From: Campylobacteraceae bacterium | GTDB lineage: Bacteria; Campylobacterota; Campylobacteria; Campylobacterales; BB28 | Direction: 5' to 3' | DNA: 47,792 nucleotides | NCBI GenBank assembly: GCA_016744535.1 | Contig: JADGEE010000011.1 | Location: forward strand, 1-47,792 | Shown here: positions 29,501 through 31,618 of the stretch, one piece after another | How positions within the stretch are numbered: position 1 is the first letter of the stretch | How the letters are laid out: each line of letters begins with the position of its first letter | Translations under genes and position numbers: made by a program | The notes under the pieces: generated by a model | What the model was told of the DNA's origin: nothing | Database searches by the model: none | Seen by the model: only the letters and a program-made list of their open reading frames with translations

Positions 29501-30010
29501 ATGAAAAGACCTGCTCCAACCAATAGAGAAAAAGTGATGAAAGATGGTGATTTTTTAGTTTCAAAAACTGATCCAAAAGGTATTATAACATATGGAAACG
29601 AGATATTTATAGAGATAAGTGGATATCAAGAGGATGAGCTTTTAGGAACTCAACATAGCATTATTCGTCATCCTGATATGCCAAAGGCCGTATTTAAACT
29701 GCTTTGGGATAGAGTGAAAAATAAAAAAGAGATATTTGCTTATGTAAAAAATTTAGCAAAAGATGGAAGTTTCTATTGGGTCTTTGCAAATATTACACCT
29801 GACTTTAATTTAAAAGGAGAAATTAGAGGTTTTTATTCAGTTAGAAGAAAACCTACTAAAAAAGGATTGGATGCTATAAGTGATATATATACAAAACTTT
29901 TAAGTGCAGAGAAAATGTCAGGAGTAAGTGAATCTGAAAAACTTTTAGGTGAAATTTTAAAAGAACTAGGAGGAACTTATGACGAAATTATTATGTCTTT
30001 ACAGAAATAA
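29501..30010 (+). CDS. PAS-domain energy-taxis protein (CetB/Aer-like)
   Basis: 169 residues, soluble. A single PAS domain (about 15-120) with the Aer-type signature [22 protein letters not shown] and [11 protein letters not shown], which in Aer and CetB holds FAD and reports redox state. A helical C-terminal tail follows (about 120-169). CetB of C. jejuni is nearly the same length and works with the membrane chemoreceptor CetA. Here the following gene is likewise a chemoreceptor lacking a periplasmic domain and overlaps this one by 32 nt. AAGGA precedes the ATG. Named by similarity of architecture only. Confidence 0.85.
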
Positions 30011-31424
30011 ATCAGTATTTGTATCACTTAGTTTTATTATTATAACTATTTTTTATCTTTTACTTTTTAAACAAGACTATATTTTTACTGGAATCTCTTT
30101 TATTACATTAATAATAGTGGTATCTTTATTTAAGTGTAGAGTAGATGTAATAAGAGAGGATGAGTTGTTTCAAAAAATTAATGATGTTGCTTCTAAACTT
30201 GCTGATGGTAAATTAGGGTATAGAATTACAAGTATTGATAAAGATTCTGCTTTTAAAAATATCGCTTGGACAATCAATAATACACTTGATCAATTAGAAG
30301 CTTTTATGAGAGAAATTGAGACATCTATTCAATCAGCAGGTCAAGGAATAATGCATAGAAATATATTAGACAGTGGATTAAAAGGAAAGTTTTCACAATC
30401 AGGAAAACTTATTTCAATGGCTGTTGAAGCAATTCAAGAGAGTTATAAAGTTAAAGAGAGAGGAGAGTTAGCAAAATCTTTTCACGGTTTAGGTGGTGGA
30501 ATGGCTTCAGGTTTAGCTATACTTCAACACGATTTAAGTGAAGGTGCTAATAATATGGAGATAATCACAGAAAAAGCTATTAATATCGCTAAAAGTTCTA
30601 ATGAAAATATTAAAGTTGTGCAAGATATTACAGGTAATTTACATAATTTAATTGCTTTAATTGAGCATTCTCATAATTCAATTGAAGGTTTAAGTCAAAG
30701 AGCCGTAGAGATTACGGGAATTATAAGTTTAATTAAAGATATAGCAGATCAAACAAATTTACTTGCTCTAAATGCCGCTATAGAAGCAGCACGAGCAGGT
30801 GAGCAAGGACGAGGTTTTGCAGTAGTTGCAGATGAGGTACGACAACTTGCTGAGAGAACAGGAAAAGCTACAAATGAAATTGAGATAACAATTAAAACAC
30901 TAAATCAAGATGCAAGTGATATTTTAGGTAACTCTGGGAAAATGAGCGAAATTGCTAGAACTTCAAGTACAAGTGTTGATGATTTTGAAGCTACTTTAGT
31001 GAATTTTAATAGTGCATCAAATGAGACAGCTGAAATATCTTATATAATGGAAAATCGTCTATTTGTAACTTTAGCTAAAATTGACCATATTATATTTAAA
31101 TCAAACGCTTACGCTTCTATATTAAATGGTTCACTTAAACAGAAATTTGGAAATCATCATAATTGTAGATTAGGTAAATGGTACTTTTCAAAAGGTAAAG
31201 AGAGATTCGGAGATTCCCCAAGTTTTAAAGCATTAGACGCTCCTCACGAAGTAGTTCATCAATCTGTATTAAAAAATGTTGAATGTTTAGAGAAGGGAGA
31301 TTGTTTTAAATATAAAAAAGGTATATTGGAAAATTTTATGAAAATGGAAGATGCTAGTGCAAAATTATTTGTATTACTTGATAAAACAACAACAGAAGCT
31401 ACGCTGAATACGGAAAATTTATAA
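29979..31424 (+). CDS. membrane chemoreceptor without periplasmic domain, ending in a CZB zinc-binding domain
   Basis: 481 residues. Two adjacent hydrophobic helices (about 12-28 and 33-50) form a hairpin with no room for a periplasmic sensor. A HAMP-like region and long cytoplasmic coiled coil lead to the signalling tip [19 protein letters not shown]. The last 120 residues are a chemoreceptor zinc-binding domain: His370, then [10 protein letters not shown] with His393 and Cys396, then PHEVVH with His423/His427. CZB domains bind zinc through 3 His and 1 Cys, and in known receptors they respond to zinc or hypochlorous acid. AGGAGG five bases before the ATG supports this start inside the PAS gene. 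The pair is probably a bipartite redox sensor, with PAS signalling to the HAMP region. Confidence 0.9.
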
Positions 31425-31541: not shown

Positions 31542-31618
31542 TGGTGGGTTCTCGGAGACTCGAACTCCGGACCACTCGGTTATGAGCCGAGTGCTCTAAC
31601 CAACTGAGCTAAGAACCC
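31542..31618 (-). tRNA. tRNA with CAU anticodon (Ile2 or elongator Met)
   Basis: 77 nt including an encoded CCA. The acceptor stem GGGTTCT pairs with AGAACCC, the D arm reads AGCTCAGTTGGTTAGAGC, the anticodon stem CTCGG/CCGAG encloses loop CTCATAA (anticodon CAU), and the T arm contains GTTCGAGTC. The loop and the bases around it resemble the Ile2 tRNA of B. subtilis, whose C34 is changed to lysidine by TilS. Elongator Met cannot be excluded; it is not initiator Met, because C1-A72-type features and the GGG/CCC anticodon stem are absent. It begins 19 nt after the rodA stop codon on the same strand. Confidence 0.93.

Follow-up and report, generated by a model that had tools for sequence, protein, structure and literature searches.

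A CetB/CetA gene pair with a predicted zinc-binding CZB domain, and sequence evidence that the C-terminus of C. jejuni-type CetA derives from a CZB

The window analysed here (the whole stretch of 47,792 nucleotides, contig JADGEE010000011.1 of a Campylobacteraceae bacterium) carries an overlapping gene pair that probably encodes a bipartite CetA/CetB energy-taxis receptor, in which FAD would be the core input and zinc a modulatory one, the two cytoplasmic inputs acting on one signalling hairpin. Membrane-bound CZB chemoreceptors are already known as a class, and the combination of flavin and zinc is widespread in the CetA family. The new element is that the founding CetA, that of C. jejuni, looks from its sequence like a zinc-less descendant of a CZB-bearing form.

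The gene pair and its two predicted cofactor sites

The cetB-like gene (29501..30010, +) encodes a protein of 169 aa with a single PAS domain. The cetA-like gene (29979..31424, +), on the same strand and sharing 32 nt with it, encodes a receptor of 481 aa composed of a membrane hairpin, a HAMP region, an MCP signalling domain and a C-terminal CZB domain. A Shine-Dalgarno-like AGGAGG lies within cetB (29968..29973, +), 5 nt before the cetA ATG, and translational coupling of the two genes is predicted. In Kyte-Doolittle hydropathy (17-residue windows, threshold 1.6), hydrophobic windows were confined to CetA residues 11-58 (two segments, 30009..30152, +), so the receptor has a membrane hairpin without a periplasmic domain. 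The MCP signalling domain occupies residues 230-359 (30666..31055, +; Pfam MCPsignal, E 1e-34). Just downstream of the pair, on the opposite strand, there is a tRNA-Met (CAT) gene (31542-31618, -).

The HAMP region and the first part of the signalling helix (approximately residues 60-133; 30156..30377, +) were delimited with alignment A4, a profile of 22 rows covering only the N-terminus and HAMP part (by later scoring 14 rows with all four zinc ligands, hereafter intact, 4 ligand-less and 4 CZB-less). Pfam HAMP_2 matches this region of the window CetA only below threshold (E 0.086); in A4 it aligns with the family. Nine columns, G77, R82, W97, N100, L103, D104, E107, R127 and G133, are invariant in the 22 homologues, and the window CetA has all of them; the number nine is the count from our own alignment alone. 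Elliott et al. reportedly described nine conserved HAMP and proximal residues in CetA/CetB receptors in 2009. A single-PAS gene adjoining the gene of a HAMP-MCP membrane receptor that lacks a periplasmic domain is the CetA/CetB architecture, and the overlapping pair of this kind proposed in the earlier note was borne out by open reading frames, Pfam and hydropathy.

The window CetB matches Pfam PAS_3 (E 2.3e-13), and its closest solved chain by sequence is the PAS domain of E. coli Aer (8dik, E 1.4e-26). Its Aer/CetB-type flavin-pocket residues are H52, R56, H57, F65, W69, N84 and R115. When compared with the FAD-pocket residues given for Magnetospirillum gryphiswaldense CetB2 (H54, N55, R58, F67, W71, N86, V100 and R117; PMC12442639), six of eight are identical, and the two exchanges, N55 to S and V100 to I, are mild; the same S is found in 25, and the same I in 40, of the 96 CetBs that stand beside intact CetAs. 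CetB2 binds FAD and interacts with CetA2, and its Asn55Asp variant has an intermediate phenotype (PMC12442639); the Ser of the window CetB at this position is a point against the flavin reading. By its pocket residues as a whole, the window CetB would be an Aer/CetB-type FAD-binding PAS protein, with predicted FAD occupancy.

The CZB domain of the receptor is recognised by Pfam at residues 370-430 (31086..31268, +; E 5.1e-15, 56 bits against a cut-off of 29.4), as the earlier note had proposed. Alignment to the ligand pattern gives a full 3His/1Cys set of predicted zinc ligands: H370 (codon 31086..31088, +), the Cys ligand C396 (31164..31166, +), H423 (31245..31247, +) and H427 (31257..31259, +). 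The note had named H370, rightly, and the motif HHNC (393-396), in which C396 alone belongs to the consensus ligands and H393 and H394 are additional. Zinc occupancy is predicted, and the flavin pocket and the complete zinc site agree with the two inputs, flavin in PAS and zinc in CZB, that the note had foreseen. From the signalling tip, taken at the Arg of the RAGE motif, it is 98 residues to the first ligand His in all 100 intact rows measured (those among 110 in which a script found the motif; a few rows were later dropped as weak or long). Given this constant spacing and the recurrence of the four ligands in 104 of 215 CetA homologues, the ligand set is not a matter of chance.

Beyond the last zinc His, the window CetA has an extra Cys pair, C436 and C442 (CX5C; nt 31284-31304). 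By a loose pattern, CX5C occurs in 34 of 86 intact and 1 of 104 ligand-less CetAs (the intact ones from Campylobacterota), in none of the 23 intact CetAs of Pseudomonadota and in 10 of 36 non-CetA CZB receptors. The pair is possibly a second redox element.

An AF2 model of CetA residues 344-471 reached a pLDDT of 94.5. Its highest structural match was the CZB domain of DgcZ (3t9o; Z 11.4 and rmsd 2.4 over 109 aligned residues), level with unrelated four-helix bundles and below the Z of about 13 from which matches between helical bundles become telling; the DosC middle domain (4zvc) matched as well, with Z 11.0. Foldseek also placed the DgcZ CZB at the top (E 0.042, probability 1.00), with nothing under E 0.001. 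TlpD was absent among the best 50 matches in Foldseek and in the Z-score comparison alike.

Seven CZB matches occur in the genome that contains the window (3.0 Mb, 174 contigs), and the best Pfam CZB score among them is that of the window CetA. Four cetB-cetA-CZB pairs are present (in the window and on C72, C30 and C144), along with a soluble MCP-CZB protein of 445 aa (C77) and a 743-aa CZB receptor with a different N-terminus (C173). The seventh match, on contig C124 (L008:2401-3834), is a CetA-CZB gene without an adjoining cetB, whose product is 53% identical to the window receptor. Two further loci are of note. On C88 (L073:1777-3664) there is a cetB-cetA pair in which the CZB-aligned C-terminus of CetA has lost all three His ligands and kept the Cys; this C-terminus matches a profile of non-CetA CZBs at E 7e-9 in a single comparison. 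The other, C3 (L074:1634-3171), combines a short CetB-like PAS protein (127 aa) with a 381-aa receptor that ends without any CZB. The notion that the CZB is a peculiarity of the window gene was ruled out by the paralogues and by the order sample and named loci described below.

CZB domains across CetA receptors and in the C. jejuni type

When named genomes were scanned with the CetA N-terminal/HAMP alignment, 54 loci were obtained from Campylobacterota, Gammaproteobacteria, Betaproteobacteria and a few other phyla. Among their 50 usable rows, counted before weak, long and truncated rows were removed, 40 were intact, 4 ligand-less and 6 without CZB. Of 80 genomes sampled from the order, among them that of the window, 49 had a CetA. 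The 79 usable different CetAs of this sample stem from 46 genomes, with the window's excluded; 58 keep all four ligands and 21 are ligand-less, and at least one intact copy is present in 36 of the 46. All 21 ligand-less proteins match a profile of 35 non-CetA CZBs at E 1.8e-5 or better in single comparisons. A CZB domain on CetA is the majority state in the sample of the order and at the named loci alike. The earlier note had implied that it is unusual, a view to be given up if CetA-family receptors generally carried the domain, and these counts overturn it.

The whole set of 215 CetA homologues, from which eight weak or long proteins and one truncated protein had been removed, divides into 104 intact, 105 ligand-less and 6 CZB-less proteins; given the selection of rows set out below and the kinship among them, it is no census. 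All rows from outside Campylobacterota come from the 54-locus scan, whose query was CZB-type CetAs, and each of the other genome searches contributed about 30 loci, to which two selections of 15 and 20 stretches were added. Eleven of the twelve order-sample matches of 63 bits or less were left out, and four order-sample loci have no entry: L131 (its tail equals that of L095), L185 (cut), L213 (weak) and L133 (no usable frame). Also left out were 11 profile matches without the HCD pattern, among them L099 and L105, in which the CZB motif is present; L279 and L284-L286 (390-391 aa) are likewise among the left-out matches without this pattern and stand outside the ligand scoring.

The six CZB-less CetAs (two Melioribacter-type records, one each from Ignavibacteriae, Kapaibacterium and Planctomycetota, and one record titled Arcobacter) make up one side of a tree branch with support 84, two of them being long branches. 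A separate family, f9 (L191, L194, L197, L248 and relatives), comprises CetAs about 412-421 aa long, which begin close to HAMP and apparently have no membrane hairpin. They are still paired with CetB, and their CZB region is without zinc ligands too.

For C. jejuni, the published residues are K3, H24, R44, H46, K47 and Y116 of CetA and G21, R50, H51, E53, V58 and V92 of CetB (PMC2628428). At locus L339 (genome G192), a CetA of 459 aa has all six of the former, and a CetB encoded 18 nt downstream of cetA has all six of the latter; another PAS gene lies upstream of cetA. Judged by these residues, the locus is that of C. jejuni or a near relative. Profile A4, in which the window protein is included, matches the L339 CetA, which establishes homology in the HAMP region. 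At the position of the window's first-ligand-His segment, the L339 C-terminus reads KIDHILYKSNIYL, and the His is, as in the window, 98 residues away from the signalling tip. It is the only ligand kept, the Cys ligand and the HxxxH being missing.

Taken alone, this C-terminus matches the profile of 35 non-CetA CZBs at E 1.4e-11 (single comparison). Searched at E up to 10, two near relatives had no Pfam CZB match (L275, among the best 25 of 27 matches, and L257, among all 22); L178 and L165, which are also without the full ligand set, score above the Pfam CZB cut-off. In profile-profile comparison against the same 35 CZBs, 12 Campylobacter-type C-termini gave 97.2% (E 4e-11, about 120 columns), the f12 group 98.0% and the membrane-less CetA group 99.1%. 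The second paralogue type, like L169, reached only 77.5%, and its single rows were the weakest among those listed (L169 itself 1.8e-5 and 2.7e-4). The controls were 0.2% for four CZB-less tails and, with 25 column shuffles for each set, a highest value of 3.7%. With the start moved 20 residues on, 32 sequences still gave 96.7% (no shuffle above 5.3%, and 0.3% for six control tails). When the first helix was cut as well, the Campylobacter set fell to 62.1%, so much of the CZB signal sits in that helix. Across the whole set, all 105 ligand-less CetAs match the non-CetA CZB profile at E 1e-3 or better and none of the six CZB-less rows does; in these single comparisons the latter range between 1e-3 and 0.1, and two of the six match when the threshold is set at 1e-2.

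Three betaproteobacterial CetAs, from Chitinibacter (L098), Chitinilyticum (L100) and Deefgea (L102), have a ligand-less CZB-like C-terminus, and their loss of the ligands is apparently independent. The AF2 model of L098 had a pLDDT of 91.1, from an alignment that included intact homologues. Here the DgcZ CZB ranked 13 (Z 11.2) and Foldseek put generic bundles first. Structure as proof of a ligand-less CZB was dropped, since unrelated sensor bundles outscore the DgcZ CZB, and the CZB ancestry of the ligand-less regions consequently rests on sequence profiles. By these profiles, descent of the C-terminus of C. jejuni-type CetA from a CZB is well supported, which gives an identity to the last hundred or so residues of that receptor. 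The earlier note knew of no CZB in C. jejuni CetA; this is correct for the annotation, but the C-terminus itself appears to be CZB-derived with its zinc site lost.

Loss of the zinc site, a proposed mechanism and its alternatives

A quick SH-aLRT tree, built from 145 CetA bodies stripped of the CZB, has long branches; on it the intact/ligand-less label needs 17 changes, and the starred branches alone force at least 12. If loss is taken to be irreversible, the ligand-less CetAs fall into 17 maximal clades; 13 of these consist of one row each and are possibly assembly errors or pseudogenes. The direction, loss and not gain, is argued not by the tree but by the fact that the ligand-less regions are homologous to non-CetA CZBs. 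Because the ligands have been lost many times, zinc is not required for the receptor to persist. Among the 105 ligand-less CetAs, 27 keep none of the aligned ligands, 60 keep one, 15 two and 3 three, and with so few retaining three of four the site tends to go or stay as a unit.

The FAD pocket of CetB is near-invariant whether the partner CetA is intact or ligand-less. The R58 equivalent is found in 103 of 103 CetBs beside ligand-less CetAs and 95 of 96 beside intact ones, N86 in 102/103 and 96/96, W71 in 103/103 and 90/96, and R117 in 102/103 and 96/96, counts that are not independent events since the rows are kin to each other. Positions 55 and 100 vary in both groups. The repeated disappearance of the zinc site alongside a conserved flavin pocket, together with intact, orphan and zinc-less copies within one genome, amounts to a set of natural experiments.

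In the mechanism that we propose, CetB would carry FAD in its PAS domain, dock on the HAMP region of CetA and report the redox state of respiration. The C-terminal CZB of CetA would fold back along the coiled coil, by analogy with TlpD, where the signalling helices lie between two CZBs. In that receptor the signalling coiled coil is flanked by CZBs on either side, kinase activation is attributed to the zinc-bound form, and lost zinc coordination accompanies tip shifts of 18-20 Å (PMC12871147). Since the tip-to-His distance does not vary, the zinc site has a set place with respect to the kinase-control tip. By arithmetic, its mirror position on the N-terminal arm would be close to residue 175, about 40 residues below the conserved segment on the HAMP side. 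Any flavin signal that enters at HAMP would in that case run through the stretch between the two CZBs, placing the two inputs in series on one hairpin, a plausible though hypothetical convergence. Zinc-bound and zinc-free states may shift the hairpin between kinase-on and kinase-off. The zinc input could come from the pool of free zinc or from the Cys-Zn site becoming oxidised; the question of direct oxidant sensing by CZBs, as against sensing by way of the zinc pool, is under revision (PMC13370339). In several lineages, including the C. jejuni type, the zinc site would have been lost and the domain kept, often as a scaffold.

A broader version of this proposal is that CetA/CetB was ancestrally dual-input, at least in Campylobacterota, Gammaproteobacteria and Betaproteobacteria, that C. 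jejuni CetA is derived, its CZB a zinc-less scaffold, and that the zinc site tunes the flavin response in gain or sign. We advance it tentatively, as somewhat short of probable. If it is true, zinc availability or oxidants would retune aerotaxis.

The persistence of the domain without its ligands also bears on a different explanation, in which the CZB serves chiefly structure or localisation, stabilising the dimer or the polar array, with zinc as a fold cofactor and not a signal. The match of every ligand-less row to CZB profiles fits it, as do the retention of the first-helix His in 67 of the 105 and the dependence of polar TlpD localisation on the C-terminus (PMC13001251, PMC12871147). We nevertheless consider it rather unlikely: the full 3His/1Cys set is present in nearly half of the 215 CetAs, the set tends to be retained or lost as a unit, and in Salmonella McpA taxis to oxidant and zinc depletion needs the zinc-binding Cys (PMC13370339).

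The proposal that CetA-CZB is a zinc or oxidant receptor by itself, with CetB only modulating it or serving another receptor, might draw on the orphan on C124 and on 14 of 110 rows scored intact for which no adjacent CetB was found, some perhaps cut at contig or locus ends and a few weak or long. The other 96 do have an adjacent CetB-like PAS protein (counts that, again, precede the removal of weak, long and truncated rows), and in M. gryphiswaldense deletion of either cetB2 or cetA2 phenocopies the double deletion (PMC12442639), which makes such independence improbable. Decay of the window's CZB, with its function gone, would have a precedent in the sister copy on C88, but the window protein has four ligands and outscores the other six CZB matches of its genome, and we give this idea very little credence.

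Relation to known systems

The gene pair joins two redox-sensing fields, flavin energy taxis and CZB zinc/HOCl sensing, that are treated apart in the literature found. Within the passages that our literature searches covered, no paper connects CZB with CetA, and the main text of a 2026 review (PMC13401364) does not use the word zinc. Tlp6 is named as the CZB receptor of C. jejuni (PMC9665402).

With C. jejuni CetA/CetB (Tlp9/Aer2), the window pair has in common a separate PAS protein and a membrane-hairpin HAMP-MCP receptor, adjacent genes and FAD-type PAS residues. The order differs: the C. jejuni-type locus has a PAS gene upstream and cetB downstream of cetA, whereas in the window cetB precedes cetA. 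The CZB-homologous C-terminus of the C. jejuni type is without Cys and HxxxH, and the zinc site of the window is complete. M. gryphiswaldense CetB2/CetA2 shares with the window overlapping cetB-cetA genes and the FAD pocket residues; neither CZB nor zinc occurs in the main text on that pair (PMC12442639), and our comparison with it covers the gene arrangement and the CetB pocket.

H. pylori TlpD and Salmonella McpA likewise have a C-terminal CZB past the MCP hairpin with the 3His/1Cys set, but are soluble receptors, whereas the window CetA is membrane-bound. TlpD has an N-terminal PAS domain of its own with no obvious ligand pocket (PMC12871147), in contrast to the separate flavin PAS protein of the window. 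Membrane-bound CZB chemoreceptors are a described subgroup in a survey of 10,140 CZB proteins and belong to the same architecture class as the window CetA; the passage that describes them mentions neither a partner PAS gene nor CetA (PMC8262984). The DosC middle domain (Pfam DosC_2nd, PDB 4zvc), which Pfam names as CZB-like, gives weak matches in some ligand-less CetAs and occurs in a protein context other than a chemoreceptor. E. coli Aer shares FAD-PAS, membrane anchor, HAMP and MCP domain with the window pair and, unlike the pair, combines them in one protein with no CZB.
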